Shown here: piece after piece, positions 12,754 to 64,000 of the stretch
Numbering within the stretch: position 1 is the first letter of the stretch
Layout of the letters: each line of letters begins with the position of its first letter
Assembly: GCF_028716865.1 (NCBI RefSeq)
Contig: NZ_JAQUOY010000009.1
Coordinates: 1 to 64,000, forward strand
DNA from: Candidatus Methylomirabilis sp.
GTDB taxonomy: Bacteria > Methylomirabilota > Methylomirabilia > Methylomirabilales > Methylomirabilaceae
DNA: 64,000 nucleotides
Direction of reading: 5' to 3'
Position numbers and translations under genes: made by a program
Notes under the pieces: model-generated
Told to the model about the DNA's origin: nothing
The model's input: only the letters and a program-made list of their open reading frames with translations
Databases searched by the model: none

Positions 12754-12781
12754 GTCACCCCTTTCTCTCTCGAAGACGAGG

Positions 12782-13774: not shown

Positions 13775-13826
13775 TGTTATCCCGCTCCCAAGCAACGAGG
13801 ATGTTGAAAACAGACCTCGACCCCTT

Positions 13827-17548: not shown

Positions 17549-18186
17549 CTGATCCCTCCCGTCTTCCGGCCTTGTTTGGGCAGAGTTACCGTATGGGCGG
17601 GACCGTGACACTCGAGGCACCTCATCTCCTCGCTTCGTATCTCGGGAGCCATAGCCACATGAATCGCCAGCGCCACGTATCGCTTGGCGCCATCATGACA
17701 TTTTAAGCAGAAAGCGTTGGCAAGGGGGGCGCGCATCTTGATGGGTAACTCATACGAGTGAGTCCAGTGCTTGTAGGCATCTGTCAGCCCATTCAGCTTG
17801 GCTCGGAGGGTCCCATGGACGCCATAGTTGACGTGGCAAGAGTAGCACTCACTCCCTGACGACGACCGCTGTTGGAAATGATAGGCGGCGAGGGACCGGC
17901 TCTGACTGCTGCGCATGTCATCGATGTACGGTTGGTGGCAGGTCCCGCAGAACTGGACTTCCTTTGCATATTCAAGCGCGGTGAAATTACCAACGCCAAG
18001 GAGCAACAGCGGCAGAATGCCCAGGGACAGCAGATGCAGCCACAAGACATTCCCCTCGATCTGCCGGCCTTTGAAGACGATGAGCGTGACGACAATGCAG
18101 CCGAGAATAGCGATTGAGATGCCGATAGTGAGAAGAATCCCCCAATCCAGCCAACTTCCCCACTTCAACCCCTCGGCATTGACCAT
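17545..18186 (-). CDS. NapC/NirT-like membrane tetraheme cytochrome c
   Basis: 213 residues from ATG 18186 (GAGG five bases upstream); a TTG at 18204 preceded by GGAG is nearly as good. Two membrane helices lie in the first 70 residues, unlike classical NapC with one. Four CxxCH sites follow: CGTCH, CYSCH, CLKCH and CLECH. NapC/NirT proteins oxidise quinol and feed periplasmic reductases, so it is a likely donor to NapAB1. Its stop overlaps the membrane cyclic-nucleotide receptor gene, and napA1 lies 440 bp further on. The extra helix and the divergence from NapC make the exact partner uncertain. Confidence 0.85.
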   Translation of the reverse strand: MVNAEGLKWGSWLDWGILLTIGISIAILGCIVVTLIVFKGRQIEGNVLWLHLLSLGILPLLLLGVGNFTALEYAKEVQFCGTCHQPYIDDMRSSQSRSLAAYHFQQRSSSGSECYSCHVNYGVHGTLRAKLNGLTDAYKHWTHSYELPIKMRAPLANAFCLKCHDGAKRYVALAIHVAMAPEIRSEEMRCLECHGPAHTVTLPKQGRKTGGIS

Positions 18187-18212
18187 CTGTGCCTCAGCCA
18201 GCAACTTCGCTC

Positions 18213-24200: not shown

Positions 24201-27071
24201 GAAGAGATCCCACGCTACCCCATCGGAGGCGGTGAGCTTGGCGGTCTGAGTCATCGTGGTCCAGCCGCCACCGGGCTTGACGAAGACATAGGCGGCGCCC
24301 TGCCAGCTGTTGCCACCGATGGTGGCGTGATACGCTCCTACGACGACGGTGTCGCCGCTGATAGCCACGGAGTTGCCGAAGTCGTCGCCCATTGCCCCGT
24401 CGGAGGCGGTAAGCGTCGCGGTCTGGGTCATCGTGGTCCAGCCGCCACCGGGTTTGACGAAGACGTAGGCGGCGCCCTGACTCCACCAACGCGTCCCCAC
24501 GACCACCGTATCGCCGCTGATGGCGACCGAGAGGCCGAAGTTGTCACCTACGGCCTCGTCGGAGGCGGTGAGTTTGGCGGTCTGGGTCATGGGATTCGAG
24601 GCCGTCGCCCAGCCGGAGCCGGGCTTGACGAAGACGTAGGCCGAGCCTCGAATGCAGAGGGCGGAACAGGAGGGATCCCCTGGAGCTCCTACCACCACCG
24701 TGTCACCGTTGATGGCGACAGAGGTGCCGAAGCGGTCATCCACCGCTCCGTCGGAGGCGGTGAGCTTCGCGTCGAAGGTGGAAGTCGTCGCCCAGCCGGA
24801 GCCGGGTTTGACGAAGACGTAGGCGGCGCCCTGGTCCCAGTTGGCGCCGATGTCGGCCCAATATGCCCCCACGACGATGGTGTCGCCGCTGATGGCGACG
24901 GAGGTGCCGAACTTGTCATACGCATCCCCATCGGAAGCGGTGAGTTTGGCGGTCTGGGTCATCGTCGTCCAACTGGCGCCGGACTTGACGAAGACGTAGG
25001 CGGCGCCTTGATCGACGTTCGTGCCGATGTCGGCGTGATGCGCCCCTACGACGATCGTGTCGCCGCTGATGGCGACGGCGATGCCGAACTCGTTATCCAC
25101 CGGCTGAGCAAAGACGTAGGCAGCGCCCTGGCTGGTGTTGGCGGCGCCCGCCCCCACAACGACGGTGTCGCCGCTGATGGCGACGGAGGTGCCGAAGACG
25201 TCAGAGGCCGCCCCGTCGGAGGCGGTGAGCTTCGCGGTTTGGGTCATGGTGGCCCAGCCGGTGCCGGGCTTGACGAAGACGTAGGCTGAGCCCTGATAGG
25301 TATTGGAGCCAATGGTGTCGGTGTCGGCCCCCACAACGACGGTGTCGCCGCTGATGGCGACGGACCAGCCGAACTCGTCACCCGCTGCCCCGTCGGAGGC
25401 GGTGAGTTTAGCGGTGAAGGTCGAGGTCGTCGCCCAGCCGGAGCCGGGTTTGACGAAGACGTAGGCGGCGCCCTGGTTGCTGTTGGAACCGATGTTGTCT
25501 CCATACGCCCCCACCACCACCGTGTCGCCGCTGACGGCGACGGAGTAGCCGAAGGCGTCAGAGGCCGCCCCGTCGGAGGCGGTGAGCTTAGCGGTCTCGG
25601 TCATGGTGGCCCAGCCGGTGCCGGGTTTGACGAAGACGTAGGCGGCGCCCTGGCTGGCGGTGGCGCCGATGTCGGCCCCCACCGCCCCCACCACCACCGT
25701 GTTGCCGATGATGGCGACGGAACGGCCGAAGAAGTCATACGCGGCTCCGTCGGAGGCAGTGAGTTTCGAGTCGAAGGTCGAAGTCGTCGCCCAGCCGGAG
25801 CCGGGTTTGACGAAGACGTAGGCGGCGCCCTGGTAGGCGGTGGCGCCGATGTTTGCGCGATACGGCCCTACGACGATGGTGTCGCCGCTGATGGCGACAG
25901 AGGTGCCGAATTCGTCACCCCCGGCCCCGTCGGAGGCGGTGAGTTTGGCGGTCTCGGTCATGCTCACCCAGTGAACAGCTTCGGGCACCTTGACAAAGAC
26001 GTAGGCGGCGCCCTGATCGGCGGTGGCGCCGATGTCGGCCGACGGCACCCCCACGACGATGGTATCGCCGCTAATGGCGACGGAGTAGCCGAACTGGTCA
26101 CTCGCCGCTCCGTCGGAGGCAGTGAGTTTAGCCTGCTGGCTCCAGACGCCGCCTGTGCGCGTGAAGACGTAGGCGGCACCTTGGTAGGTGTTGGAGCCAA
26201 TGGTGGCGTACCACGCCCCCACGACCAGGGTGTCGCCGCTGATGGCGACGGAGTAGCCGAACTCGTCACCCACTGCCCCGTCGGAGGCGGTGAGCTTGGA
26301 GGTCTCAGTCGTCGTACTCCAGACACCCAGTGGATCGGAGGCGGTGAGTTTGGCTTGCTGGATGAATGGGTCGATGGTTAGCGGGTAGCGGGCATGGGTA
26401 TCGTCCACTTGGATGAGCAGGCGCGGGCCGTCAGTCGTGAGCCACGCAGGGAGCGTCGCGCCGGTCGCATCGGTTACCGTGAGGCCCGTATAGCGGAGCT
26501 GGGGCGCGCCCGTATGGGTGAGCAACGTGGCCGCCGTCTTGCTCGTCTCCACGCGGGCTGTCAAATCCCCGCCGACGGTCAAGGCGAGAGTGAGCGGCCC
26601 GGTCCCGCGCCGTGGCGGCGCGCTCATGGTGATCCCCTGCTCCAGCCCAAGAGGGCCGTTGATGTACCATTCGGTGAGGGGACCGCGGCGGTACTCGATC
26701 CGGTTGTGCTCGGCGCGTGGCGCGGCATGGCGAACGGACTCGGAGGGCGTCCCGTACCCCCAGCCGGTGAGCTGAAGCGTGCCTGTGGTTTGCCCCTGCG
26801 TCAGCGTGAGGCCCGTATCCGTGAGCGTGGCGGTGAGACCGTGCTTGGAGTTATTGAAGCTGAAGCCGGTCCCCTGCGAACGGGCGCGGTAGGTCGACTG
26901 ATCCTTTCCAAGGGTAGCGGCAATGGCGGCCTGGGCCGGGAGGGGCAGGTCGGCCAGGGTCTGTTGCTGTTTGGGGGCTGCCCAACTCGCGGATGGACGC
27001 ATGAAGAGCCATCCGGCGAGGAGCAGGAGCAGTAATACGCTACGTTGTCGCTGAGACAGGTGTCGCAGCAT
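18213..27071 (-). CDS. Giant secreted multi-repeat protein (FG-GAP, GloVer-type, InlB-type and BNR/sortilin-like repeats)
   Basis: 2952 residues, starting at ATG 27071 with AGGAGAG seven bases upstream. Signal peptide about 1-31 (cleavage near ASWA). Roughly: unassigned beta domain 32-230; 14 FG-GAP-like repeats 234-1050 (unit [20 protein letters not shown]); one InlB-B-type repeat; seven GloVer-type units about 1137-1500 (ADGALYGTT); a run of about eight InlB-B-type repeats 1504-2160 ([17 protein letters not shown]); then BNR/VPS10-like propeller blades to the end ([12 protein letters not shown]). No clear sortase, PEP-CTERM or autotransporter anchor is seen. It is probably exported or surface-exposed, with an adhesion or matrix role inferred. 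One InlB-type unit carries a 20-odd-residue insertion. Confidence 0.85.
20590..22560 (-). repeat. Tandem array of InlB-B-type repeat units
   Basis: Inside the giant gene, units of about 230-260 bp each encode [20 protein letters not shown], a CG(T/P)xC pair and GSTFxGWSG. About seven typical copies and one variant ([15 protein letters not shown]) are seen; a single further unit lies at about 23660-23915. The units are close enough in DNA sequence to recombine. Confidence 0.8.
22570..23660 (-). repeat. Tandem array of seven GloVer-type units
   Basis: Seven units of about 160 bp within the giant gene encode [18 protein letters not shown], then [20 protein letters not shown]. This matches the choice-of-anchor tandem repeat called GloVer. 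DNA identity between units is high (the run gcgccatccgcgccctgga recurs). Confidence 0.8.
23920..26370 (-). repeat. Tandem array of 14 FG-GAP-like units
   Basis: Units of about 160-180 bp within the giant gene encode [20 protein letters not shown] followed by [14 protein letters not shown] and [11 protein letters not shown]. Integrin-type FG-GAP units fold as blades of a beta-propeller; 14 units could make two seven-bladed propellers. One unit near 25090 is shortened. Confidence 0.82.
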
Positions 27072-27386
27072 CAGTACTCTCCTATTCGAACGCAGTGGTA
27101 CTGGAACGGCACAAATTATCGGTACGCTACACAATTCCACCTGAAGAGTCAAGGTGAAAATACTTTCGCGTAAGAGGATTATCAGACTTGGCTGTCAACG
27201 CTATTCTATGGTAGAAAAGTGTAAGAAACTACAGTCTATCACCCGAAGAAAGTACGAGCTTATCCATGCCACATTGTATGTATTGTATGTATAAGACAAC
27301 AGCGGGCTTGGTACCGATTGCACCGGTTCCAGCAAGGCCCAGACACTCGATGAAGATGATAAATATTGATTTCCTAGAAAATAGTG
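27072..27386. other. AT-rich intergenic region ahead of the giant gene
   Basis: Upstream of the giant gene the sequence is clearly AT-richer than its surroundings and holds a short direct repeat (atgtattgtatgtat near 27275). No convincing gene is present; the 91-codon minus-strand frame at 27201-27476 has no start signal and unlikely composition. Promoter elements for the giant gene probably lie here but I cannot assign them. The last eight bases (27379-27386, AAAATAGT) are one copy of the direct repeat that flanks the next element. Confidence 0.4.
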
Positions 27387-35645: not shown

Positions 35646-36776
35646 TCATCGCGCAAGTCCATGGGCCACAGCCTGATCGCTTGGCTCCAGAGGAGCTTTC
35701 GAAGGAATCCGAGTTGCGGCTTTTTCCTCCCAGGCCGCATAGTCCTCAGTAAAATATTTCAGCCGAACTTTTTTGAATTCCCGCGTCGTCCACAGCATTG
35801 CGTAATCGCTAATTCCAGCCTCCAGGCTGATCGCCGCCACCGTTTCTTCACACGCTTCTCGGCTCTTCTGATGGACCATCGTAAAGAGCGTAAAGGGCCA
35901 CTCCGGGTAGGCGGGGCGCTGATAGCAGTGGCTCACCGCGCGAAATTGCGCCATTTGAAGTCCTACAGCCTCTACCTTTTCTTCGGGTACAGGCCACGCC
36001 ACCATCACATTCCCGGCGTAACCGGCCTTGCGATGGTTCAAAATCGCGGCAAAGCGACGCATGATGTTCCGCTGCAGTAACTCCTGGGCACCGGCTAACA
36101 CCGCCTCAACGTCCAGTTCGCACTGCCGGGCGACCTCGCGAAACGGCTCCTCAACGAGCGCCAGATCATGTTGCAAAACCCGCACGATCTGACGCTCCGT
36201 AGGACTTAAGCCATTCCCAACAGCCCCGTTACCCGTGAAGAAATTACCCGTTTCCTTACGTACGCCCGCTGCTTCAGCGTCCATATCCAGGCGCACCCCA
36301 ATCTTGAAGACTCTGAGCGCCGGAAAGAGCCGTGCCGCATTGGCACCTGCATCTCGCGCCAAAACGGCCATACTGGTCTCAAGCCCGAGTTGGCTCTCGG
36401 GAGCGACAGCAAGGGTAAACCACATATTGTACGGGCAATACGCAGCAGGCCTGTAGTCGTTAGAAAATGCGAACGAACGCAGATAATTGTGGCTTACACC
36501 CGGATGAGCGTTAACCAGGACAGCCGCTTCGTCAACACGCTCCTCACGCAGCCTGAAGCCGACCAGCGATGACCGATAGCCAAGGCGCGATGTATCGAAG
36601 ATAGCGCCGATGTTCCGAATAATGCTGTCGGCTTTGAGCCTGGCAATGCGCTCAAGCACATCACCCTCGGTCAGTCCCAGGCCTTCACCTAGAGCGCGGT
36701 ACGGGCGCTCCACAAGTGGGATACCGGCCTGCACCGCATCCAGCAGTTTACCGTCAATCGCGTCTATCCCAATCAC
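35646..36776 (-). CDS. nirDLGH: Siroheme decarboxylase for heme d1, fused NirDL-NirGH type
   Basis: 376 residues made of two homologous Lrp/AsnC-like halves (about 5-165 and 190-350), each with a helix-turn-helix-like N-terminus and a catalytic part containing conserved His/Tyr (VSHNYLRSFAFSNDY; VSHCYQRPAYPEWPF). In other denitrifiers these are separate NirD, L, G and H proteins that decarboxylate 12,18-didecarboxysiroheme precursors on the way to heme d1. GTG 36776 is chosen because GGAGGG lies six bases upstream; TTG 36779 is too close. It is the last gene of the nirS-nirJ-nirF-napA2-napB2 cluster. Confidence 0.92.
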   Translation of the reverse strand: MIGIDAIDGKLLDAVQAGIPLVERPYRALGEGLGLTEGDVLERIARLKADSIIRNIGAIFDTSRLGYRSSLVGFRLREERVDEAAVLVNAHPGVSHNYLRSFAFSNDYRPAAYCPYNMWFTLAVAPESQLGLETSMAVLARDAGANAARLFPALRVFKIGVRLDMDAEAAGVRKETGNFFTGNGAVGNGLSPTERQIVRVLQHDLALVEEPFREVARQCELDVEAVLAGAQELLQRNIMRRFAAILNHRKAGYAGNVMVAWPVPEEKVEAVGLQMAQFRAVSHCYQRPAYPEWPFTLFTMVHQKSREACEETVAAISLEAGISDYAMLWTTREFKKVRLKYFTEDYAAWEEKAATRIPSKAPLEPSDQAVAHGLAR

Positions 36777-36862
36777 CAAGATCCCTCCATTCTATAACTC
36801 TGAACTTCTGCGGCCGAGCGGCGATTAGCGCAGGGATTATTCTCGACTTTCTTCGGATCCCT

Positions 36863-37195
36863 TCACTCTGGTCTCTTCTCTTCCTGAGACGAAACGGGCG
36901 AGAATGCTTTTACCGATAGGTCTTGGCCAACGTGACACTGCAAGCAAAAATGATTGCGCGTCGGATGCGGGACGATCGGAGCCCCGGCGATCCCGAATTC
37001 GTGACAAGCCAGGCACACGCCTTTCCTCGCTTCCGCATCGTGGGGGATTAAGGGCGGAGCGCCTTCATAGGCACGAGGCAGTCTCTTACTGCCTTGTTGG
37101 GCAGCAACCTGTCCAACAAGCGTACTGACGCTCAGAGCGGCCAACAAGCCCAGAAAGAAAATCCGGAGGCAGAATCTCGTAAGCGGCTTCATCAT
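36863..37195 (-). CDS. napB: Diheme cytochrome subunit of periplasmic nitrate reductase, copy 2
   Basis: 110 residues: signal peptide (about 1-32), RLPRAYEGAPPLIPHDA, and two heme sites CLACH and CLQCH. It begins at tandem ATGs after GAGGGATC, 6 bp downstream of napA2. It is clearly paralogous to the copy at 13827-14156 but has diverged more than the two NapA proteins have, mostly in the signal peptide and between the hemes. Confidence 0.9.
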   Translation of the reverse strand: MMKPLTRFCLRIFFLGLLAALSVSTLVGQVAAQQGSKRLPRAYEGAPPLIPHDAEARKGVCLACHEFGIAGAPIVPHPTRNHFCLQCHVGQDLSVKAFSPVSSQEEKRPE

Positions 37196-37201
37196 GATCC
37201 C

Positions 37202-39571
37202 TCACGCCTTCTCGATCCGAACCGCACACTTCTTAAAGTCCGGCTGCTTGGAAATAGGATCGTAGGCATCAAGCGTCACCAGATTGATTAAAACATTTTC
37301 GTCAAAGAAAGGAACAAAGATCACTCCTTTCGGGACCGTGTTTCTTCCATCCAGTTGGGCCTTTGTGACGATCTCACCGCGGCGCGATTGGACACGGACT
37401 GAGTCGCCGGCCTTGATTCCCAAGGCGCCCGCGTCCTCGGGGTTGATCCACACGGGGGCAAAGGGGACGGCACGATGAAGCTCAAGGACTCTCCTCGTAA
37501 TGGTCCCTGTATGCCAGTGTTCAAGAACGCGACCTGTCGTGAGCCACAAAGGATATTGCTTATCGGGCTGCTCGGCGGGTGGCTCATAGGGGCGCTCCCA
37601 GATTACGGCGCGGCCATCAGGCTGACCGTAAAAACGAACACCCTCGCCCTTCTTGACATACGAGTCGAACCCCTCCCTGTAGCGCCACCTGGTTTCTTTT
37701 CCTTCGACAACCGGCCAGCGCAGTCCGCCCCGGACCTTCGCATACACGTCATAGGGCGCGAGATCTTTTCCCGACCCCTGGCCAAACTTTCGATACTCCT
37801 CGAAGAGCGCCTTTTGCAGGGGCTCCTCCCCATAGGCAAACAGGTGTCCCAAATCAAGACGCTTGGCCAATTCAATAATCTGCCAGAGATCGTCCTTCGC
37901 TTCACCAGGCGCGTCTACCATCTTGAACCAGTGCTGCGTGCGCCGCTCGGTGTTACCAACCATCCCCTCCTTCTCAACCCACATGGCCGACGGAAGGATG
38001 AGATCGGCGTGCCGAGCGGTTTCGCTGGGATACACCTCGGAGACAACGATAAACCGCTCGCCTCCCTTTCGCGCACCCTTGCGATAGCGGCCCACATGGG
38101 GCAAGGTCTGAAAAGGGTTGGTGGTGTTGATCCATATGACCTTGATATCCCCGCGATCCAGCGCGCGAAACATCTCCATGGTGTGGTAACCGGGCCTAGA
38201 TGAAATCTTCTCAACTGGGACGTTCCAGATGTGCGCTGTTTTTTTGCGATGCTCTGGGTTCGCAATCAACATGCCGCCAGGAAGAGCGTGGGACAGTACT
38301 CCTACCTCCCGCGAAGTCCCGCACGCTGAAGGCTGCCCGGTCAGCGATAAGGGACCGTTGCCAGGCTCGGCAATTTTTCCGGTCAGAAGGTGGAGGTTAT
38401 AGACAAGATTATTGATCCAGGTCCCGCGCACGTGCTGGTTGAAGCCCATCGTCCAACAGGACACGGCCTTACGCTTGGGATCGCCCAATAACCGGGCAAT
38501 CTGACGGATCGTGTCAGCCGGGACGCCGGAGAGTTTTTCCGCATATTCCGGTGTATAGGTTTCCAGGAATTTCTTATACTCCTCGAAACTGATCGGTTGC
38601 GCCTTGTCAGCAAAAGGTTTGTACGTCTTCCAACTGGTTTCCGAAGCCCCGCCATACTCAAAGTTATCCCCTACGCCATAGCCGATTCCTGTCAGCCCCT
38701 TCTTGAAGGTGACATGCTGCTGAATAAATGCCTCATTTGCAAGTCCCTCTTTCACGATGATATGGGCCATGGCATTCGCGATAGCAAGATCCGAGTGAGG
38801 CTTGAAAATAGCGACGATATCCGCAGGTTCATCGGTGCTGCGGTTCAGATAGGTTTGCAGGCTGATGATCTTGACGTTGGAATCCTGGTGCTTTCGCTCA
38901 ACCATCCGCGAATAGAGGATCGGATGCATCTCGGCGAAGTTTGAGCCCCAGACAAAAAAGGTATCGGTCAACTCAAAATCGTCGTAACACCCCATCGGCT
39001 CATCCATGCCGAAGGTCGAGTAGAAACCGGCCACGGCCGAGGCCATACAGAGACGTGCATTGCTCTCGACGTTGTTGGAGCCTATCCCAGCCTTCATCAA
39101 TTTATTGATGGCGTAACCTTCAAAGATGGTTGTTTGACCCGAGAAGTACACCGCTACCGACTCCGGACCATGTTGTTGGATAGTCTCTTTGAACTTAGAG
39201 GCCATGATATCCAACGCCTGATTCCAAGAGATCTTGACAAACTTGTTACCTTGGCGAAGCAGCGGTGCACTATAGCGGTCAGGGCCATAGAGAATTTTGG
39301 GTAAACTATAGCCTTTGATACAGAGAAGGCCTCGATTGACGGGAGCCTCCGGATCTCCCTTGACAGCTACCACCTTGCCTTCCCGAAGCCCTACCAGCAC
39401 GCCGCATCCGACGCCGCAGAAGCGACAGGGGCTCTTCTTCCAGGCCTCTACTGCCGTCTCAGCAGCCTCCGCGAGACCCTCAGGGGTAGGGAGTAATGCA
39501 TCAGGCGAGGAAATGATTGCCGCGCTTGCTCCCACCAAGGTCTTTAACAGTTCTCTACGAGAAAGTTTCAT
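37202..39571 (-). CDS. napA: Periplasmic nitrate reductase catalytic subunit, copy 2
   Basis: 789 residues with Tat motif SRRELLK at the N-terminus, cluster cysteines at about 49, 52, 56 and 84, and the molybdenum Cys in ARLCMAS. Nearly co-linear with copy 1, with high identity through the whole length including the C-terminal FDENVLINLVTLDAYDPISK; differences gather in the signal peptide and scattered surface positions. ATG 39571 with GAGGTG upstream. It sits inside the nir cluster between nirF and napB2, placing nitrate and nitrite reduction under shared control. Confidence 0.96.
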   Translation of the reverse strand: MKLSRRELLKTLVGASAAIISSPDALLPTPEGLAEAAETAVEAWKKSPCRFCGVGCGVLVGLREGKVVAVKGDPEAPVNRGLLCIKGYSLPKILYGPDRYSAPLLRQGNKFVKISWNQALDIMASKFKETIQQHGPESVAVYFSGQTTIFEGYAINKLMKAGIGSNNVESNARLCMASAVAGFYSTFGMDEPMGCYDDFELTDTFFVWGSNFAEMHPILYSRMVERKHQDSNVKIISLQTYLNRSTDEPADIVAIFKPHSDLAIANAMAHIIVKEGLANEAFIQQHVTFKKGLTGIGYGVGDNFEYGGASETSWKTYKPFADKAQPISFEEYKKFLETYTPEYAEKLSGVPADTIRQIARLLGDPKRKAVSCWTMGFNQHVRGTWINNLVYNLHLLTGKIAEPGNGPLSLTGQPSACGTSREVGVLSHALPGGMLIANPEHRKKTAHIWNVPVEKISSRPGYHTMEMFRALDRGDIKVIWINTTNPFQTLPHVGRYRKGARKGGERFIVVSEVYPSETARHADLILPSAMWVEKEGMVGNTERRTQHWFKMVDAPGEAKDDLWQIIELAKRLDLGHLFAYGEEPLQKALFEEYRKFGQGSGKDLAPYDVYAKVRGGLRWPVVEGKETRWRYREGFDSYVKKGEGVRFYGQPDGRAVIWERPYEPPAEQPDKQYPLWLTTGRVLEHWHTGTITRRVLELHRAVPFAPVWINPEDAGALGIKAGDSVRVQSRRGEIVTKAQLDGRNTVPKGVIFVPFFDENVLINLVTLDAYDPISKQPDFKKCAVRIEKA

Positions 39572-39600
39572 AATCGGCACCTCACCGTCACCGTATCCTC

Positions 39601-40827
39601 TCACATTCCGAACTTATGCGCCCGGCTGGTAAAAAAGATCCCGGAAGGATGAGCCGCCGGAAACTCCTTCAGTACCTTAAACGTCGTCGTATCATATACA
39701 ACCACTTTGCCGCCATCCATCAAAGAGACGTAAGCAGCCTCTCCCTTCGGTGTGAACTGCGGGTGCGTGGCGCCGGGCCCGGGATTGAGCGTCTTGACAA
39801 CCTTCATGCTCTCGACGTCAATGACATCGATCAGGTCTCCGTTTTTGCCGACAATGTCTACCCAGACCTGACGTCCGTCAGGTCGGACGACGGGATAGAG
39901 CGCGGTACCGCTGATCGGGATGGGCGTCAGCGGTGTCCAGTCGAGCGCCGAATACACCAGGACGGCCTCGCGTTTGATTGCGGGAAGAAAGGCCAGCCGT
40001 CCAGCAAGCGCCCAGCCTTTGAGATGCGGAATTTTCCACAGTGGGACCTCTGGACCTTTGCCCTGCTCGGCCGGGATCGGAACGACCCGCTCGAGTTTCC
40101 ATGTGTCAAGGAGCCCCATCCAGTCAGAGTCCAACAAGCCCACAATGTAGTAGCGCCCATCAGGACTAATCAGGGCATCGTAGGGTGTCTTCCCGACATT
40201 CGCAAACTTTCGGATGACCGGAAAATCCTTTTTCCCTGCATCCACGACCCATACGCTGTTGCCATCCATCAAGGAAAACACAAGGAGATTGCCCGGAGCG
40301 TCAACCAGCCCCACTACTCTGGACGGAAGCTCTTTTCCACCCGCGTCTGTATACACCGCCGGAATCGTCTTGACCAACTCCAGCGTCTCAGCATCCAGAA
40401 TACGCACCTCGCCGGGGACGTAATTACTGAGAGCCACGTACTTGCCATCCTGACTGATGACACCGCCGACGGATACCCCTCCCGCATTGACCTGCTTGAC
40501 AAGTTTAAGCGTCAAGAGGTCGATCTTCGATACCTGGGCCTGGCGACCAATGACGTAGGCATAACGCGCGTCTGGCGAAAACTTTACGGTAGCATGGGTC
40601 AGGTTGCCGAGTCCGGAAATCCGCCCCAAAAGCTCCTGGCGGAAGGAGTCGATGATCAGAACACTGCCGGCCTCTCGTTCAACGACAACCACCAACGATG
40701 CCGTACCCCAACGCGGGTCACCGGCGCTCGACTGGATGGGAAGGCCGAGCGCAAAGAGAAAGAGAATGAGAAAAGTCTTAGCAACGTACTGGAAAAAGCG
40801 TGCCGACACGATTATTTTCCTTTCCAT
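39601..40827 (-). CDS. nirF: NirF-like heme d1 biosynthesis protein
   Basis: 408 residues. Signal peptide about 1-35, then a cytochrome-d1-type eight-bladed propeller with YVTN-like units (YAYVIGRQAQVSKIDLLTLK, VALSNYVPGEVRILDAETLE, HPQFTPKGEAAYVSL) but no CxxCH, as expected for NirF rather than NirS or NirN. NirF acts in the periplasm on dihydro-heme d1. ATG 40827 lies inside the end of nirJ (50-bp overlap); a GTG at 40809 with AAGGA eight bases upstream is an alternative that would still keep the signal peptide. Confidence 0.9.
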   Translation of the reverse strand: MERKIIVSARFFQYVAKTFLILFLFALGLPIQSSAGDPRWGTASLVVVVEREAGSVLIIDSFRQELLGRISGLGNLTHATVKFSPDARYAYVIGRQAQVSKIDLLTLKLVKQVNAGGVSVGGVISQDGKYVALSNYVPGEVRILDAETLELVKTIPAVYTDAGGKELPSRVVGLVDAPGNLLVFSLMDGNSVWVVDAGKKDFPVIRKFANVGKTPYDALISPDGRYYIVGLLDSDWMGLLDTWKLERVVPIPAEQGKGPEVPLWKIPHLKGWALAGRLAFLPAIKREAVLVYSALDWTPLTPIPISGTALYPVVRPDGRQVWVDIVGKNGDLIDVIDVESMKVVKTLNPGPGATHPQFTPKGEAAYVSLMDGGKVVVYDTTTFKVLKEFPAAHPSGIFFTSRAHKFGM

Positions 40828-41995
40828 CCGATAAGATCCCTAACTCCTCATCGCTCAGGTAGCATCCAGGGTCTGAGGCCCACAAGTCCCCGGTCGTCGC
40901 CTCCGCTCGTACTCTCGAATTGCCGCCGCACAGCTCAAGATACGGGCAGCGAGCGCAGCGACCTTTGAGGGATTGACGACGATCCTTCAATGCACGCATG
41001 ACTGGATCGGCCGTATCTTCCCAGATTGCCCCAAAACTCCTCTCACGGACATTGCCGAAGGAGTAATGGCTCCAAAAAGGATCGGCATGGACGTTCCCGA
41101 GGCTATCGATGTTTCCCAACGAGGTGCCGGAACTATTCCCCCCTTGACGTTGAAGAAGGCGAAAAACCGATTGCGCCCGCGCAGGGTCGGAGCGTCGCAT
41201 CTTCAAATAGAGATAGACGCCATCGGCATCGTTATTGCCGGTGGTCACTTCGATCTTTACGCCACGGCGGTGAAAATCCTCAGCCCTTTGCATGAGATAA
41301 TCGAGCGCGCCTTGCTGTTCCTCAGGCAAAAGATCGTCATGGATAAGTCCCGCTCCCCGTCCCGCATAGACCAGATGCGAGAAGTAGAGGCGATCCAGGT
41401 TCTCCTGCTCTGCCATGTCAAAGATCGCCGGCAGGTCAGGGAGTATCCGGCGGCAAAGAGCGGTCCGAATACCGACTTTCATCCCTTCATCGCGGGAGTG
41501 GCGCAGTCCTTGTAGCGCCAGCGCGAACGATCCCTGCATTCCGCGAAAGCGATCATGCACCTGCCCGATTCCATCCAGGCTCACGCCGACGTAGGTGATA
41601 CCGGAACGCCGCAGCCTCTTCGCCGCCGCGGCGTCTATCAACGTCCCGTTCGTTGACAGCGCGCAACGCACCCCAAGATCTTGGGCGTAATCCGCGAGTG
41701 TGTAGAGATCCTCCCGATATAAAGGATCCCCACCGGAAAGGATGAGTACCGGAATCCTGTAGTGGGCCAGGTCAGCAATCAGCCGTTTCCCTTCGTCGGT
41801 CGTTAACTCATCGGCGTAGGCGCGGTCCTGTGATTGGCTGTAGCAGTGCAGGCAATGGAGGTTGCAACGTCGGGTAAGGTTCCAGATGACTATCGGCTTT
41901 TGGGCAGAGGGCGGCAAAGACAACCCGTCTTTCGGCCTCGGAAGCATTTCAGGGCCCTGAACCGGCCCACACGACAGTTCCGTAATCCTCAGCAT
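40778..41995 (-). CDS. nirJ: Radical SAM heme d1 biosynthesis protein NirJ
   Basis: 405 residues with the radical SAM cluster motif CNLHCLHC (C-x3-C-x2-C, about residues 44-51), the GGDPL motif, and a C-terminal SPASM-like cysteine region (CARCPYLELCGG and the DPGC further on). NirJ replaces propionate side chains with oxo groups on the heme d1 precursor. ATG 41995 starts the frame. It follows nirS after a 126-bp gap that holds a perfect hairpin. Confidence 0.93.
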   Translation of the reverse strand: MLRITELSCGPVQGPEMLPRPKDGLSLPPSAQKPIVIWNLTRRCNLHCLHCYSQSQDRAYADELTTDEGKRLIADLAHYRIPVLILSGGDPLYREDLYTLADYAQDLGVRCALSTNGTLIDAAAAKRLRRSGITYVGVSLDGIGQVHDRFRGMQGSFALALQGLRHSRDEGMKVGIRTALCRRILPDLPAIFDMAEQENLDRLYFSHLVYAGRGAGLIHDDLLPEEQQGALDYLMQRAEDFHRRGVKIEVTTGNNDADGVYLYLKMRRSDPARAQSVFRLLQRQGGNSSGTSLGNIDSLGNVHADPFWSHYSFGNVRERSFGAIWEDTADPVMRALKDRRQSLKGRCARCPYLELCGGNSRVRAEATTGDLWASDPGCYLSDEELGILSDGKENNRVGTLFPVRC

Positions 41996-42061
41996 TGCCG
42001 ATAATCCAATCCTTAGTCTGCAATATTGACGAATCTAGGAACCATCATACCACGCAATAGA

Positions 42062-42095
42062 CTTCGGGGCGAGCCCAGAAGGACTCGCCCCGAAG
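42062..42095 (-). terminator. 12-bp perfect hairpin between nirS and nirJ
   Basis: CTTCGGGGCGAG (42062-42073) and CTCGCCCCGAAG (42084-42095) are exact complements around a 10-base loop. On the minus-strand transcript it lies just after the nirS stop; no U-run follows, so it may act as a partial terminator or an mRNA 3'-end stabiliser that sets nirS above the biosynthesis genes. Confidence 0.6.
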
Positions 42096-42121
42096 GTGTG
42101 ATTCTTCAAACATAACCCCAG

Positions 42122-43759
42122 TTAATAGATGTCGCGCACTGTGTTATAGACGTTAAACTTGCCCGTCGGCGTGATGATGCGCGGATCGTCGATCCTAGCT
42201 ACTTCTTGAAGTGTCTTATCATTATAGACGACGATCTCGCTCTTACCGTCTTTCTTCCCCCACACGCTTATCCATACCTCGTCCCCGGCCTTGTTGAACT
42301 CGAAATGGACCGCGCGCCCTTTGTCCGAAACCTTCCAGCACTTCGGATCTTTGTCCATGTTCGCTTTCTCGAAGACGCAGACTTGCTTTTGAATGGCCGG
42401 ATCACCGTTCAGGGCGTGGTCTACCCAGACATTTTTGCTCTTCGGATGCGTCTTGATAAACAGGCCGCCGCCTCCCAGGGTCTTGAGCTCCCTCACCTTT
42501 TTCCAGGCATACTCCTTGTGCTTGGCCGGATCGGTTCCGTAGACGGTAACCTTGCCTTCGCCGAGATGCGGAGTGCCATTCACCGGACCGAATTTCGGAT
42601 CGATCCAGTTGGCGCCGCGTCCCGGATGAGGCTTGATTCCCGATTCGAAGATCGCCTCCAGCTTGCCTTTCTCGACGTCGATCACGACCACCTTGTTCGC
42701 CATGTTAGCCGCCACCATGAAGTAGCGTTTGGTGCTGTCCCAGCCGCCGTCGTGCAGAAACTTCTCGCCTTGGATCTGGGTCATCTTGAGGTTCTTGAGA
42801 TCCGAGTAATCGACAAGCCAGATCAGCCCGGTCTCCTTAATGTTAATGACCCACTCGGGCTTGAAGTGCGACGCCACGATCGAGGCGACCCGGGGCTCGG
42901 GGTGATACTCCATGGTATCGTAGGTCATGCTCCGGCTGCTGATGACCTTCATCGGTTCCAGCGTGGCGCCGTCCAACACAATGATCTGCGGCGGCCAATA
43001 GCAACCAATAACAGCAAGCTTATCCGTGAAGTCGCCCAGCTTGCCTTTATACTTACTCGTGTCAATAGAGCGCGCATCACTGCATGGCTTCACCTCGGCG
43101 ACCTTATCCGGAACCTTCATCCACAGGTCGATCATCGTCGCCCGGCCATCGCGGCCGATGGTGTACATGTAGCGTCCTGAAAAGGAACTGCGCGAGATAT
43201 GGACCGCAAAGCCGGTCTTGACAGTGTTGACGATCTCCTTGGTGTCGCCGTCGATGATCGCCACCTGGCCGGCATCGCGGAGGGTCACGGCAAAAAAGTT
43301 CTGCCAGTCACGGTTATGCTCAGGCTTTGTGGGTCGCTTGTCCGGCGGCACGATCAGGCTCCAACTTTTCTTCATATCCGCCATGGAGAGCTCGGGTGGC
43401 ACGGGCGGGTCGTGCTGGATGTAGCGAGCCATCAGGTCGACTTCACTGTCCGAGAGAATGCCTTGCCGACCCCAGTCCGGCATACCACCGCCTGTGCCGT
43501 TTGCGATGAACGCCTTCAGAACCGGCGTTGTTAACGCACGAGTTTTCGACGGCAGAAGCTGCGGGCCCGTTGCGCCTTTTCTCAAGACTCCGTGACAGCC
43601 CGCGCACCGATCGAAATAAATACGCTTGGCCGATTCAAGCTCACCCGGCGCCAACGGTGGAGCCGGCGGAAGCTCTGGCGCCGCAGGCGCCTGCTGGGCC
43701 AGCGCTGGAGCGACCCATAGCAACAGGGCTAACAACGCCAACATTGCCTTCCTCGCCAT
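42122..43759 (-). CDS. nirS: Cytochrome cd1 nitrite reductase
   Basis: 545 residues from ATG 43759 with AAGGAG upstream. Signal peptide (about 1-21), a cytochrome c domain with CAGCH (about 55-60) and a large d1-heme propeller. The heme d1 and active-site histidines are recognisable in AVHISRSSFSG, VASHFKPEW and FLHDGGWD. NirS reduces nitrite to NO in the periplasm. In this organism type NO is proposed to feed the Nod enzyme encoded at the right edge of the window. First gene of the nir/nap cluster, divergent from mtnA. Confidence 0.96.
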   Translation of the reverse strand: MARKAMLALLALLLWVAPALAQQAPAAPELPPAPPLAPGELESAKRIYFDRCAGCHGVLRKGATGPQLLPSKTRALTTPVLKAFIANGTGGGMPDWGRQGILSDSEVDLMARYIQHDPPVPPELSMADMKKSWSLIVPPDKRPTKPEHNRDWQNFFAVTLRDAGQVAIIDGDTKEIVNTVKTGFAVHISRSSFSGRYMYTIGRDGRATMIDLWMKVPDKVAEVKPCSDARSIDTSKYKGKLGDFTDKLAVIGCYWPPQIIVLDGATLEPMKVISSRSMTYDTMEYHPEPRVASIVASHFKPEWVINIKETGLIWLVDYSDLKNLKMTQIQGEKFLHDGGWDSTKRYFMVAANMANKVVVIDVEKGKLEAIFESGIKPHPGRGANWIDPKFGPVNGTPHLGEGKVTVYGTDPAKHKEYAWKKVRELKTLGGGGLFIKTHPKSKNVWVDHALNGDPAIQKQVCVFEKANMDKDPKCWKVSDKGRAVHFEFNKAGDEVWISVWGKKDGKSEIVVYNDKTLQEVARIDDPRIITPTGKFNVYNTVRDIY

Positions 43760-43925
43760 GCCACTTCTCCTTTCGTTAGGTAGTGTCCCCAGGACTTTCA
43801 TGGTTAGCGCGCTGACAGACCCCACTCATGACCTCACGTTGACTGGATGCTGTTTATACTGCTCAACTGTATGTTTCTATGACTCGTGAGGCTATTTGGA
43901 ACAGTCTCAAGCCGCATCGGGCGTG

Positions 43926-58689: not shown

Positions 58690-59217
58690 CTACTTAAAGG
58701 CATAGTCCAGGTAGACGTGGTACGCCATGAGCAGCAACAACGCCATAGATAATCCGACATGGGCGCTGATCCATACCGGTCTGTACCAAGGCTTGTGGAT
58801 TTTGACGATTTGAAAATTGAACAGGCCGGTGAGGAAGGCCAGCAACAACGTCAGGCTGAGGATTTCGAGATAGCCGTATCCCAAGGTTTGGGAATGTCCA
58901 AAGAAAAACAACAGAAGCAGGGCGCCGAACAGTTTGTGGCGATCCATCATGGTTGCGACATTGCGCTGCTCCCCCTGAGCGCGCTTCACGGAAAAACGCC
59001 ATTGATACAGAACAAACGCAAACAATCCGAAGCCTGTGGCGAGCTTATACGTGTTGTCGCCTTGCAGTCCGGTCAATAAGGTCCACTGCCACCCCGTCGA
59101 TTGCTGGACAAGCAAAGCCACCAGCAGGAACAGACCCAGCCAAAAATACCCCTTGGTGGGTACACCGGACTTCAGGCCGTCCGTGAGTAACGATTTAAAT
59201 CGGTTGAAGCCTTGCAT
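58690..59217 (-). CDS. Cytochrome-b-like membrane protein
   Basis: 175 residues with about five membrane helices. Histidines placed within or at the ends of helices (RHKLFG, FFGHSQTLG, KIHKPWYRP, SAHVGLSM, MAYHVYLDY) suggest bis-His b-heme binding as in ferric-reductase-like or cytochrome b561 proteins; this is inferred. ATG 59217 lies 13 bp after the Tll0287-like gene's stop, with no strong ribosome binding site, so translation may be coupled. It is the last gene of the cluster downstream of the Nod candidate and could link its cytochromes to the quinone pool. Confidence 0.7.
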   Translation of the reverse strand: MQGFNRFKSLLTDGLKSGVPTKGYFWLGLFLLVALLVQQSTGWQWTLLTGLQGDNTYKLATGFGLFAFVLYQWRFSVKRAQGEQRNVATMMDRHKLFGALLLLFFFGHSQTLGYGYLEILSLTLLLAFLTGLFNFQIVKIHKPWYRPVWISAHVGLSMALLLLMAYHVYLDYAFK

Positions 59218-59230
59218 AAAGACCAGGCTT

Positions 59231-60103
59231 TTAACGGGCAATGACAAGGGCACCTCCTTCTTTGTTCGCTGCAGACCCTCCTGGTTTAGGCTTGCTTGCC
59301 AGTGAGCTGAGCACCGCCAAGGTGTGCGGGGCTGTGCGCTTGGCGATTTCCCCCATGAACACCTCGGAGCTTGGCAGGAAATAACCCTCAGCCGGCCAGT
59401 GTTCGCCAATGGTGGGGGGATTGGCAAATTTCCGCGCCTTTTCAAGATAAGACTCGTAGGCATCCTTGAAGCCTTGACGTAAGGCGGCGAGCGTGCGGAG
59501 CAACTCGTCCATGGACACGCTGCCGCTTGGGTACATCCACGTGGTCGCGCCCATCACATCATTGAGCTTCCAGTCGTGCTTCGGTGATTGTTCGTGCTTG
59601 TTGTGGCATTGGATGCAGCCCTCGACAACCGCCACATCACTGAACATGGCGACCTGCATTTGAATGTCGGGCATGAAGAAGAATTGCGGCTTGAGGGTTT
59701 GCTTGACCACCTGGAATTTTTCCAACTGCAGCCCCTCGAAGCGGTTCGCTGAGTTGACGGGATAGTCCGATCCCAGGAACAGGCTGAGCGGCGTCGGGTT
59801 CTTTTCCAGGCTTTTCGCCGTCTCACGCAGAAACAACGCGGGCAAAGGGCCGGCCTCTACGTCCGCATCGCGCCAACGCTCGTCAAACTTCAAGCCGGTC
59901 TGCTTGCCCGCGCCGACAACTTCCTTGGTCCACATCGCCCTCACCACGTCGTTTTCCGCCTTGAGAATCTCAAACATCCGTTCCACCGGGATGGCCGCGT
60001 CGGAGATCTTCTTCTCTTCCAATGGCGGCGGGGCGCTCACAAATAGGTATATGCTTAAGGCACCCAGCGCCAGGCAGGCGATCCAGAAGTTTTGTTTAGC
60101 CAT
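59231..60103 (-). CDS. Exported Tll0287-like (DUF3365) monoheme cytochrome
   Basis: 290 residues from ATG 60103 (another at 60112 overlaps the previous stop). One N-terminal hydrophobic helix (FWIACLALGALSIYLFV) then a Tll0287-like domain with RMFEILKAENDVVRAMWTKE and the heme site EGCIQCHNKHEQSPKHDWKL (CxxCH). The C-terminal about 90 residues are helical and unassigned. Such heme-PAS-like domains serve as sensors or electron carriers. It overlaps or abuts the pentaheme gene, so the two are translated together. Confidence 0.8.
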   Translation of the reverse strand: MAKQNFWIACLALGALSIYLFVSAPPPLEEKKISDAAIPVERMFEILKAENDVVRAMWTKEVVGAGKQTGLKFDERWRDADVEAGPLPALFLRETAKSLEKNPTPLSLFLGSDYPVNSANRFEGLQLEKFQVVKQTLKPQFFFMPDIQMQVAMFSDVAVVEGCIQCHNKHEQSPKHDWKLNDVMGATTWMYPSGSVSMDELLRTLAALRQGFKDAYESYLEKARKFANPPTIGEHWPAEGYFLPSSEVFMGEIAKRTAPHTLAVLSSLASKPKPGGSAANKEGGALVIAR

Positions 60104-60104
60104 C

Positions 60105-60794
60105 TTAACCATCCTGTTTTGCTTTGTAGTGAAGGGTTGTGCCGTAAGGGGAGGGCCCGCCGTCAAAATAGGCGCGGATTTTCTCTGTCGGCGTTCGCTT
60201 ACCGACCGATTTCTCGATCTGCATGATGTGGTTGCCGTGGAAGTCGTGGCAACCCAGGCAGGAGTCCCATTGCTTATCGGCGATCAGATCCGCATGGGAT
60301 ACGTCGATCGGATCTTTCTTTAACCGGGTGTTCTTGTGGCAGTTCACGCAATAGCCGGTCTCCGCCAACGTGACACGCCTGCCATGGTGCTCGGCGTGAC
60401 AGGAGACGCACTGATGGGGACGCAGCTTCTCCCGAGCCTGGCTGAAACGGGGCTCGAGGAAGCGATAGACCGGGTGACGGTCATTGGGCCGCTCGTGACA
60501 GGCCATACAGTCCGCATTACCCACAGGAAGTCGTCCGAAGAAGGGGGCGGGCCCTTCGCGCCGGCCAAAGGCATGGCGCAGGTTGGCCTGAATCTGCTGA
60601 CGGAAGCTGCCCGGTGCGTGTTTATGGCAGGCCGCGCAGGCAAGCTTACCGTGGCCTGTATTCATAGGTCCTTTAGCATGAAACCACTCCCCGACGGGAA
60701 GCACGGTAAACGCCAGGATCGCAAGTCCCAAACAAAAGCCGATCACGTAGGCGCGGTTTTGCCATTTCCGTGCTCCTCCAGCTTTCGCTCTCAT
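60105..60794 (-). CDS. Membrane-anchored pentaheme cytochrome c
   Basis: 229 residues from ATG 60794. One N-terminal helix (VIGFCLGLAILAFTVLPVG) then five CxxCH sites: CAACH, CMACH, CVSCH, CVNCH and CLGCH, with further His (HGKLA, HPVYRF, HAEHHG, HADLI, HGNHI) as likely distal ligands. It looks like a cytochrome c3/NapC-NrfH-class electron carrier but not an exact member. Tail-to-start contact with the Tll0287-like gene suggests a shared complex. Partner inferred only. Confidence 0.85.
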   Translation of the reverse strand: MRAKAGGARKWQNRAYVIGFCLGLAILAFTVLPVGEWFHAKGPMNTGHGKLACAACHKHAPGSFRQQIQANLRHAFGRREGPAPFFGRLPVGNADCMACHERPNDRHPVYRFLEPRFSQAREKLRPHQCVSCHAEHHGRRVTLAETGYCVNCHKNTRLKKDPIDVSHADLIADKQWDSCLGCHDFHGNHIMQIEKSVGKRTPTEKIRAYFDGGPSPYGTTLHYKAKQDG

Positions 60795-60914
60795 AGCCAC
60801 CACATCACGCTACGCGCCAGAAACTCATGCTGATGTATTAGGCCTTATTATGTTTGTCTGCTGTGGAGCTTACCGGTGGCGAAGATGAAACGTCTGCTCA
60901 CCCTCCGAATGAAG

Positions 60915-60960
60915 AGGGTGGGGGTGATCTGAAGGCAACCACTTAGCTCACCCCCACCCT
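60915..60960 (-). terminator. 13-bp perfect hairpin after the small alpha/beta gene
   Basis: AGGGTGGGGGTGA (60915-60927) and TCACCCCCACCCT (60948-60960) are exact complements around a 20-base loop. On the minus strand it lies 32 bp after the stop of the 60993-61280 gene and 120 bp ahead of the pentaheme gene. No U-run follows; partial termination or RNA stabilisation is likely. Confidence 0.5.
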
Positions 60961-60992
60961 ATCCTTCCGCCCCTCAAGAGAACTTCTGAGAG

Positions 60993-61280
60993 CTACTCGA
61001 TGACCTCCATAATCCGACTCTGCACATTTGAGGCTAACGTCATCAGTTCGCTGCGAAGCGCTTTACGCTCATCGAGAGCCAAAATTTTATCAAAGTTACT
61101 GAAGTCGCCCACCTCAATCGTAATGACTCGCTCCAACTTATTTGCCAAATGGTCCCCAAAGACGTGGAACCTCGAGACCCCTTGGTTGCCGAGCCAAAAC
61201 TTTTTCATTTTACCGATCAAGAAGGCATCCAATGCCTCTTCTTTCCCTGGTGAGACTTCACACATGATGTGATAGATCAT
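60993..61280 (-). CDS. Small protein with a dimeric alpha/beta-barrel-like pattern
   Basis: 95 residues, ATG 61280 after AGGAGGAGG, one of the strongest ribosome binding sites in the window. Pattern: beta (MIYHIMCEVSPG), helix, beta (VSRFHVFGDH), beta (ERVITIEVGDF), two helices, resembling ferredoxin-like Dabb/NIPSNAP folds. Several His and a Cys could bind heme or metal, but nothing proves it. It lies between the monoheme cytochrome and pentaheme cytochrome genes. Function unknown. Confidence 0.75.
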   Translation of the reverse strand: MIYHIMCEVSPGKEEALDAFLIGKMKKFWLGNQGVSRFHVFGDHLANKLERVITIEVGDFSNFDKILALDERKALRSELMTLASNVQSRIMEVIE

Positions 61281-61513
61281 CGTTCCTCCTCCTTTGACAT
61301 CGAGTGTACGTTATGGTTGTCTCCCTTCATCTCTACACACTTCATCGATCACCCCCCTTCCAGAGATCAGTGCGCCGAACTGCTGCATACTCATCAATCG
61401 CCTCGAGTGCTCTTGGGGGACGCACCGGCTGTCGTTATCGAGTACGATCCTGACGCACGCCTGCTTGTAGCACTTAGCCATCATTCAGCGCGTCGCTCCC
61501 GTCGGTCCTGGCA

Positions 61514-61894
61514 TTATGGGGTCTTGGTAAAGCTTCTGATATAGACCACCAGCTCCTTGATTTCGGGATCGGTCAGTTTTAGCCCAAACGAAGGCATCGA
61601 TGCTTTACCTTGCTTAATAGTTCGAAAGAGAACGTCATCAGACCGTGTTTGCATATAGGCCGGATCGGCCATGTTAGGCACCTTAAACATAAAAAACAAC
61701 GCCATCGCCTGCGGTCCATTGCCTTTTCCGCTTGCGCCATGGCATCGAGCACACCCGGCAGCATCGTACTTCGACTGACCGCTTACCGTATTTTTGGGCT
61801 CAGCGGCAAGCGTGGACGAGGCCCCCACGACGAACAACATCACCATCACGCATAACCACTGGCAACGGAGCCGGGACGGAAAAAAAACGCGCAT
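61514..61894 (-). CDS. Periplasmic monoheme cytochrome c (class I)
   Basis: 126 residues: signal peptide (about 1-31, cleavage after TLAA), heme site CARCHGASGKGNGPQ and axial Met in ASMPSFGLKLTDPEIKELVV. GGAGGG eight bases before ATG 61894. A small soluble electron carrier. It directly follows the Nod candidate downstream of that gene's hairpin, so it is a plausible carrier for the same pathway. Confidence 0.92.
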   Translation of the reverse strand: MRVFFPSRLRCQWLCVMVMLFVVGASSTLAAEPKNTVSGQSKYDAAGCARCHGASGKGNGPQAMALFFMFKVPNMADPAYMQTRSDDVLFRTIKQGKASMPSFGLKLTDPEIKELVVYIRSFTKTP

Positions 61895-62147: not shown

Positions 62148-64000
62148 TTAGAAGGCTTCATCGCCAGCCGCCCAGGCCTCTCTCTCTTTCGCCTTCTCCT
62201 TATCGTAGATTGTCCATTCGCCTTCCTCAACGACGGCCTCGCGGACCATCCGCCCCGCCCTTGACAGAATGAAATAGACGAGAGGCAGTACGCCACCAAA
62301 GAGGAAGATCGCCCCGCCGACCGTGCGCATCCACGTCAAGGTGATCCACACGTTATCCGTAACGTGCGCCTGCGCTCGGGCAGCCCAGAGGCCTTGCTTG
62401 AAGACGGTCGCAACCTGGTACAGGCCAACCGGGAACAGATCCAACATCATCATCAGCACCAAGCCGACCTGCAGTGACCAGAACACACCCTTGATCAGCT
62501 TCTCATTCCAGGCAGAGCGCTGGAACAGGTGCTGGCAGGCAAACAGCATACCGGCAATGGCGATGTTACCCTTGACGCCGAACATGGCGGCATGCGCATG
62601 GTTACCAGTGAGATAGGTGCCGTGCTCATAGTAGTTGACGATGGGTAGGTTGATCAGTGAGCCGAAGACGCCCGCGCCGAAGATGTTCCAGAAGTTGACG
62701 GCAAGGATGAACGTCCAGACGCCCTCCATCACGAAGCGCTGCTTGCCCTCGGCAACGTTTTCCTGGGCCTTCGTCCGCTCCGTCCGCATCTTCCAGGCAT
62801 CCAGGGTGATCAGGAGCAGTGGCAATACCTGCATGGTGGAGAACACGCTACCCAGTGCGATGATCCCTGTCGGCTTGGCGATCCAGTAGAAGTTGTGGGA
62901 GATCCCGATCAGGGCGGTCACCAGGAACATCATGACGGCCAGGAAGATAACCCGCTCGGCCATGGCCCGGTTGACCAGACCCATCTGTACCAGCATGTAC
63001 CCAACGATACAGGTGGTGAACACTTCGAAGGTCACCTCAACCCACATATGGATGTTCATCCACCGCCAGTAGTCTGCGATGGCGAAGTTCTGGGTCGGGG
63101 TCATGAACATCCCGAAGAACAGGAACAGCACCATGATCCCGCTGCCGTAGAACAGCCAGGCCGGCACGGACCAGAGGTTCTGGCTCGTGATCCAGGGCTT
63201 CACGGCACGGAAGATGATAAAGACCCACAGACAGAACGAGGCCAGCATGAGAATGTGCCAGAACCGGCCGAGCTCCAGAAACTCCCACCCCTGGCTCCCG
63301 AACCAGTAGGCCATATCGTCGCTGAAGAATCCCGTGTGGCCGAGATAGATGCCGAACAGCGCGCCGGCGCCCACGATGAGACACAACGTAAAGAGCAGAT
63401 TAATCAGGAACCGCTGGCCGTTCGGGACCTTCGAAATCCTGGGCAGGAAGAAGAGGGTATAGCCGACCCAAGCCATGAAGAACCAGTAGATCTGCACGAT
63501 GGTATGCCAGCCGCGAGTGACCGTGAAGGGGATGATGAATCCGAGTATGCTGCGCTCCAGGTAGTTGGCCGGTCCCCCTCCGACGAAATCCTCTGCGCTC
63601 AGGATACCTGCGCACACCTGAACCAGGAACAGGATCACGGCGAAGGCAAAGAACTTATACGTGGCGCGCTGAGTTGGACGAACGTAGGCATCGCCCTTGT
63701 TTTCGAGGTCAACAGTGGTGAGCGACCAATCCCGCCCATTGAACGGCTCGCCGGGTAGGGTCTTCATTTCACCGTAGACATACAGGATCAGCATGGTGCC
63801 ACAGAACAGCACGAAGATCGAGATAAAGCTCCAAATATACGTCGGGAACGTCGGGACGTTGCCGACAGCCGGATCGGGCGGCCAGTTGTGGGTATAGCTA
63901 TAGTCCTCACCTGGCCGAGTCGCCCCGGAAACCCAACCTCCCCAGAAGAAATATCCCGCAAGCGCCTTGAGGTCTTCCGGGTTGTTGATATGATTTTTGA
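62148..64000 (-). CDS. nod: Putative nitric oxide dismutase (Nod; qNor-like), N-terminus beyond the window
   Basis: The frame is open to the right edge (617 residues visible; the internal GTG at 63812 is not the start). Visible N-terminal part matches quinol-NO-reductases (DLKALAGYFFWGGWVSGATRPG, YSYTHNWPPDPAVGN). About 12 membrane helices follow. FeB-site region: HMWVE keeps the first His and Glu (codon His at 63048-63050), but the His-His pair is SHNFYW, so the third FeB His is Asn (AAC at 62892-62894). Further on, FSTMQVLPL has Gln where qNor has Glu (62829-62831). These two changes match those I recall from Methylomirabilis oxyfera Nod. The heme His motif GNHAHAAMFG is kept. Nod is proposed to turn 2 NO into N2 and O2. 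A divergent true qNor is the alternative. Confidence 0.88.
   Translation of the reverse strand, partial: KNHINNPEDLKALAGYFFWGGWVSGATRPGEDYSYTHNWPPDPAVGNVPTFPTYIWSFISIFVLFCGTMLILYVYGEMKTLPGEPFNGRDWSLTTVDLENKGDAYVRPTQRATYKFFAFAVILFLVQVCAGILSAEDFVGGGPANYLERSILGFIIPFTVTRGWHTIVQIYWFFMAWVGYTLFFLPRISKVPNGQRFLINLLFTLCLIVGAGALFGIYLGHTGFFSDDMAYWFGSQGWEFLELGRFWHILMLASFCLWVFIIFRAVKPWITSQNLWSVPAWLFYGSGIMVLFLFFGMFMTPTQNFAIADYWRWMNIHMWVEVTFEVFTTCIVGYMLVQMGLVNRAMAERVIFLAVMMFLVTALIGISHNFYWIAKPTGIIALGSVFSTMQVLPLLLITLDAWKMRTERTKAQENVAEGKQRFVMEGVWTFILAVNFWNIFGAGVFGSLINLPIVNYYEHGTYLTGNHAHAAMFGVKGNIAIAGMLFACQHLFQRSAWNEKLIKGVFWSLQVGLVLMMMLDLFPVGLYQVATVFKQGLWAARAQAHVTDNVWITLTWMRTVGGAIFLFGGVLPLVYFILSRAGRMVREAVVEEGEWTIYDKEKAKEREAWAAGDEAF

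Follow-up and report, generated by a model that had tools for sequence, protein, structure and literature searches.

The window analysed here covers positions 1-64,000 of contig C9, which is 81,578 bases long and belongs to a 2.54-Mb Candidatus Methylomirabilis genome assembled in 53 contigs. At its far end lies nodA, a reverse-strand gene of which 616 open codons (62148-63998) precede the point where the reading frame runs off the edge. The missing N-terminus was recovered by a search of the whole genome, in which nodA is an intact 807-aa open reading frame (C9:62148-64571, corresponding to L004:2148-4571). A second copy, nodB (810 aa, C9:65364-67796), is located 0.8 kb upstream of nodA; it carries the same SHNFYW and FSTMQVLPL motifs, and the two copies are 86-87% identical over the portion in the window and 83% identical overall. 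The features around nodA are the following:

35646-36779, reverse strand: fused sirohaem decarboxylase AhbA/AhbB (NirDLGH-type, haem d1 synthesis)
37202-39604, reverse strand: napA, periplasmic nitrate reductase (above the NCBIfam NapA cut-off)
39601-40827, reverse strand: nirF/nirN-like cytochrome d1 propeller protein (Cytochrom_D1, E=9.3e-87)
40778-41995, reverse strand: nirJ-like radical SAM protein (haem d1 synthesis)
42122-43825, reverse strand: nirS, cytochrome cd1 nitrite reductase, the source of NO (Cytochrom_D1, E=1.9e-129)
58690-61894, reverse strand: run of small genes for a predicted membrane protein without a family match, a Tll0287-like protein, a multihaem CXXCH cytochrome, a 95-aa protein and a c-type cytochrome
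61514-61894, reverse strand: small cytochrome (c-type, 126 aa) encoded downstream of nodA
62148-64000, reverse strand: nodA, the 3' 616 codons of a gene for a putative NO dismutase of 807 aa (orthologous to M. oxyfera DAMO_2434)

The proximity of nirS and nap to nodA, from which the preliminary description had read a role in intra-aerobic methane oxidation, is borne out, and the genes from the AhbA/AhbB-like decarboxylase through napA, nirF/nirN and nirJ to nirS all lie on one strand (35646-43825). Moreover, pmoC, pmoA and pmoB are found upstream, beyond nodB (L083:17005-14011), with pmoA approx. 11.6 kb from nodB; these genes are a more direct link between nod and methane oxidation than nirS and nap. 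Altogether, napA, nirFJS, nod and pmoCAB occupy a stretch of no more than 45 kb, and their order matches that of M. oxyfera. The comparison was made with the single-contig Methylomirabilis genome G005, which we take to be that of M. oxyfera: the order napA-nirF-nirJ-nirS, nod-nod, pmoB-A-C is kept there over 41 kb with 57-95% protein identity; one exception is the gene for a lytic-transglycosylase-like protein, the best match of which is at another place within the G005 block. A gene for a PAS-LuxR regulator located just upstream of nodB is also conserved in G005. A hairpin and a T-rich sequence directly follow nodB, and a G+C-rich inverted repeat resembling that of nodB was noted by eye after nodA, at about 62110-62065; each nod thus probably forms its own transcription unit. 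The small genes that separate nod from nadE (58690-61894) keep their order in G005, with 69-95% identity, and their products are possibly electron carriers or proteins involved in NO or O2 handling. In particular, the 61514-61894 cytochrome occupies the same place in G005 (69% identity) and may be associated with Nod.

Several other loci in the window, all on the reverse strand, were also recorded. Separate from napA, the window encodes a second molybdopterin oxidoreductase of 835 aa that contains an Fe4S4 domain; its neighbours are genes for a cyclic-nucleotide-binding protein and a NapC/NirT-type cytochrome (14166-16673 and 16979-18204). At 11461-13795, a hybrid-cluster (prismane) protein adjoins a fusion of a protoglobin with a cyclic-nucleotide-binding domain, a pair that may sense NO or O2 and detoxify NO. 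The protein encoded at 18213-27152 is 2979 aa long, carries 14 FG-GAP and seven InlB-type repeats, and is probably a giant surface protein.

The 807-aa nodA product contains the NorB cytochrome-c-like N-terminal domain (PF22085, E=3.6e-46) followed by the multi-helix core of the COX1 domain (PF00115, E=1.2e-48), and the closest named relatives retrieved by protein search are from Ca. Methylomirabilis and Methylomirabilota MAGs. An AlphaFold2 model of the part encoded in the window is of low confidence (mean pLDDT 60.8) and was used for the overall fold only, site geometry being beyond its reach; in a Foldseek search with this model, the top matches were all qNORs, with 3AYF ranked first (TM 0.74). 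Active-site and quinol-site positions were assigned by codon reading and by an alignment of 23 Nods, 10 qNors (including PDB 3AYF and 6QQ5) and four cNors, whose columns are given in the numbering of 3AYF (Geobacillus stearothermophilus qNOR):

63591-63593, reverse strand: Glu replacing quinol-site His328
63504-63506, reverse strand: haem b ligand His355, kept
63036-63050, reverse strand: HMWVE, with the kept FeB ligands His508 (63050-63048) and Glu512 (63038-63036)
62895-62897, reverse strand: FeB ligand His559, kept
62892-62894, reverse strand: Asn (AAC) replacing FeB ligand His560
62829-62831, reverse strand: Gln (CAG) replacing active-site Glu581
62592-62600, reverse strand: HAH, kept haem ligands His651 (62600-62598) and His653 (62594-62592)
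62313-62315, reverse strand: Gly replacing quinol-site Asp746

The preliminary description had read an Asn for an FeB ligand in SHNFYW, a Gln for Glu in FSTMQVLPL, and retention of the FeB Glu of HMWVE and of the haem His residues; all of these readings hold, the Asn codon lying exactly where it had been placed, and the loss of quinol-site residues that was expected of a Nod was likewise found at both positions. Asn560, Gln581, Gly746 and a residue other than His at position 328 are common to all 23 aligned Nods, whereas His560, Glu581, Asp746 and His328 are present in each of the 10 qNors, so that nodA has replaced four of the four residues that mark a qNOR. His508, Glu512, His559, His651 and His653 occur in every row of the alignment, and His355 in every row inspected. 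The putative NO dismutase was defined by these residue features (Ettwig et al. 2012, PMC3413370), and, judged from its sequence, the nodA product conforms to that definition in having His560Asn, Glu581Gln and no quinol-site His328 or Asp746. The protein is thus predicted to be a membrane protein of the qNOR fold in which both haem sites and the larger part of the FeB site are retained, and the quinol site, one FeB His and the catalytic Glu are lost.

It was also considered whether nodA might be an ordinary qNor whose Asn codon had arisen through faulty sequencing or assembly. No point in support of this explanation was found, and it is refuted. An error is ruled out by the presence of the same Asn and Gln in nodB, in the Methylomirabilis relatives with contigs spanning this position, and in nod from MAGs that are labelled as Acidobacteria, Gammaproteobacteria and Deltaproteobacteria; an ordinary qNor is ruled out by four independent site changes occurring together and by the position of the protein in the tree. 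In the maximum-likelihood tree (LG+F+I+R4, 554 columns, cNor outgroup), built with a modest sample of ten qNor sequences, all Nods form one clade (SH-aLRT/UFBoot 97.9/93) beside the qNor clade (89.8/88), and the nodA product groups with the M. oxyfera Nods and not inside qNor.

Within the Nod clade, nodA pairs with the lower-coordinate G005 copy and nodB with the other; by locus-tag order, these G005 copies would be DAMO_2434 (CBE69496) and DAMO_2437 (CBE69502), respectively. The M. oxyfera pair has the same order, the same surroundings and the same catalytic and quinol-site substitutions as the pair described here. The nodA product is 94% identical to the lower-coordinate copy over 616 aa and 91.7% identical over the full length, and the nodB product is 94.4% identical to the other copy; the divergence is of species level only, with short N-terminal and loop differences. 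Two nod genes with the same published residue changes are also known from Ca. M. lanthanidiphila (mela_02433/02434), and this pair was reported to be 95/96% identical to that of M. oxyfera (PMC6094997). Because the full-length values found here (92/94%) are lower, the genome probably represents another Methylomirabilis species. Canonical qNORs (G. stearothermophilus 3AYF, Achromobacter xylosoxidans 6QQ5 and a qNor of the same genome) resemble Nod in the fold, the cytochrome-c-like N-terminal domain, the haem ligands and FeB ligands His508, Glu512 and His559, but differ in having His560, Glu581, His328 and Asp746, none of which is kept in Nod. The same-genome qNor, encoded on contig C48, is only 37% identical to the nodA product and carries the motifs GHHWYW and FSAMEVVPL; as a canonical qNor, it serves as an internal control. 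nodA is therefore a gene of a known kind, expected in Methylomirabilis, and not a surprise.

The residues, the tree and the synteny support the earlier reading that the locus serves intra-aerobic methane oxidation, with the Nod activity itself being putative. We estimate the probability that nodA encodes a DAMO_2434-type NO dismutase, which would convert NO into N2 and O2 and thereby feed methane oxidation by pMMO, at about 0.72. According to this mechanism, for which we infer the cofactor occupancy, the reaction and the O2 transfer, nearby NirS would supply NO, two molecules of which would bind to Nod at the haem b3/FeB pocket. Since the quinol site is lost and an electron donor is lacking, the N-O bonds would be rearranged to give N2 and O2 (2 NO -> N2 + O2) instead of being reduced to N2O, and the O2 would pass to nearby pMMO, which oxidises methane. 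A literature search retrieved no purified Nod activity, and the chemistry is unproven (PMC3413370, PMC6094997); characterisation of Nod is still to be achieved (PMC6094997).

Two other functions might be assigned to such a protein. After loss of the quinol site, it could still act as an NO reductase (2 NO -> N2O) that receives electrons from another donor, e.g., the c-type cytochrome encoded at 61514-61894, whose gene adjoins nod in both genomes; the kept haem ligands, three FeB ligands and cytochrome-c-like N-terminal domain would suit this activity. However, the N-terminal domain of Nod is reported to be without haem c (PMC3413370), every aligned Nod has exchanged Glu581 for Gln and the FeB His for Asn, and a complete qNor is already encoded in the same genome. 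Moreover, an N2O reductase was not found in the genome, yet M. oxyfera is reported to give little N2O (PMC3413370). Continued reduction of NO to N2O is thus considered unlikely. Somewhat less probable still is that the protein binds NO without turnover, as a sensor, NO buffer or carrier, or catalyses some other reaction on NO. The change of two metal-site residues and the lack of a recognisable electron entry would agree with such a role, but the remaining metal ligands are strictly conserved across distant phyla and the Nod proteins of M. oxyfera are abundant according to published data (PMC3413370).

Part of the argument for dismutation is that no N2O reductase was found. A search for the NosZ propeller domain detected none in either the genome studied here or G005, whereas it was positive in six other nod-bearing genomes, which served as controls. 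A model of the lactonase-type enzyme (L-NosZ) gave no match above the cut-off in the genome studied here; the weak matches are generic beta-propellers of a kind also hit in the genus, in Escherichia coli and in Bacillus subtilis. A hidden N2O reductase, through which N2 would be made in the ordinary way, was therefore rejected. Outside NC10, NosZ is encoded in six of the 10 nod-bearing MAGs (G064-G069); Nod need therefore not be the sole route to N2 in these organisms and may work beside classical denitrification.

The one unexpected point concerns the relationship between the two nod copies, the rest of the nodA system being already known. In the five genomes in which both copies are complete, the nodA- and nodB-type copies agree at third positions with an identity of mostly 0.3-0.6 in codons 1-250 (G009: 0.6-0.8), whereas in codons 451-600 the value is 0.84-1.00 in each genome and 1.00 in G005. 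In a tree of the core (codons 440-600, spanning HMWVE at 508, SHNFYW at 558 and TMQ at 579), the two copies of one genome cluster together in four of the five cases (UFBoot 83-99), whereas the tree of codons 700-800 groups the sequences cleanly by copy and that of codons 1-250 nearly so. By AU tests, a by-copy topology was rejected for the core (delta lnL 119, p 0.0004), as was a by-genome topology for both flanks (delta lnL 404 and 262). Grouping of third positions by genome is expected from repeated gene conversion, but neither from selection acting at the protein level nor from a common codon bias. It is therefore highly likely that the catalytic core of the Methylomirabilis nod copies is kept alike by repeated gene conversion, while the termini diverge for good. 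None of the papers searched connects gene conversion to nod of Methylomirabilis, and the two that mention concerted evolution as well as Methylomirabilis bear titles on different subjects; the report that both nod copies of M. limnetica cluster together (PMC6636425) fits this explanation.

Some contigs of six other Methylomirabilis genomes (G003, G004, G007, G010, G012 and G014; e.g., L028-L032, L041, L042, L048 and L049) start or stop inside nod. The near-identical core produced by gene conversion would break short-read assembly at this point and is probably the cause of these breaks. In a deltaproteobacterial MAG, two tandem nod-like frames were observed (L017, G068:C65:19494-23577), the second of which is broken by TGA, owing either to decay of this copy or to faulty assembly.

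Nod has been proposed as the enzyme behind intra-aerobic methane oxidation, which is among the few biological sources of O2 in the dark, and the genome described here adds a clean, complete nod pair with all its pathway neighbours from another Methylomirabilis. Core-only gene conversion would distort nod-based trees and short-read assemblies of Methylomirabilis, and it is a warning that nod copy counts and nod amplicon trees of NC10 can mislead. Counts taken from MAGs with a broken nod are unreliable. For the organisms themselves, such gene conversion would mean that two isoforms are maintained with an identical active site and different outer parts, which may concern partners, regulation or location, and homogenisation confined to the core would mark the part of Nod that is under shared constraint.
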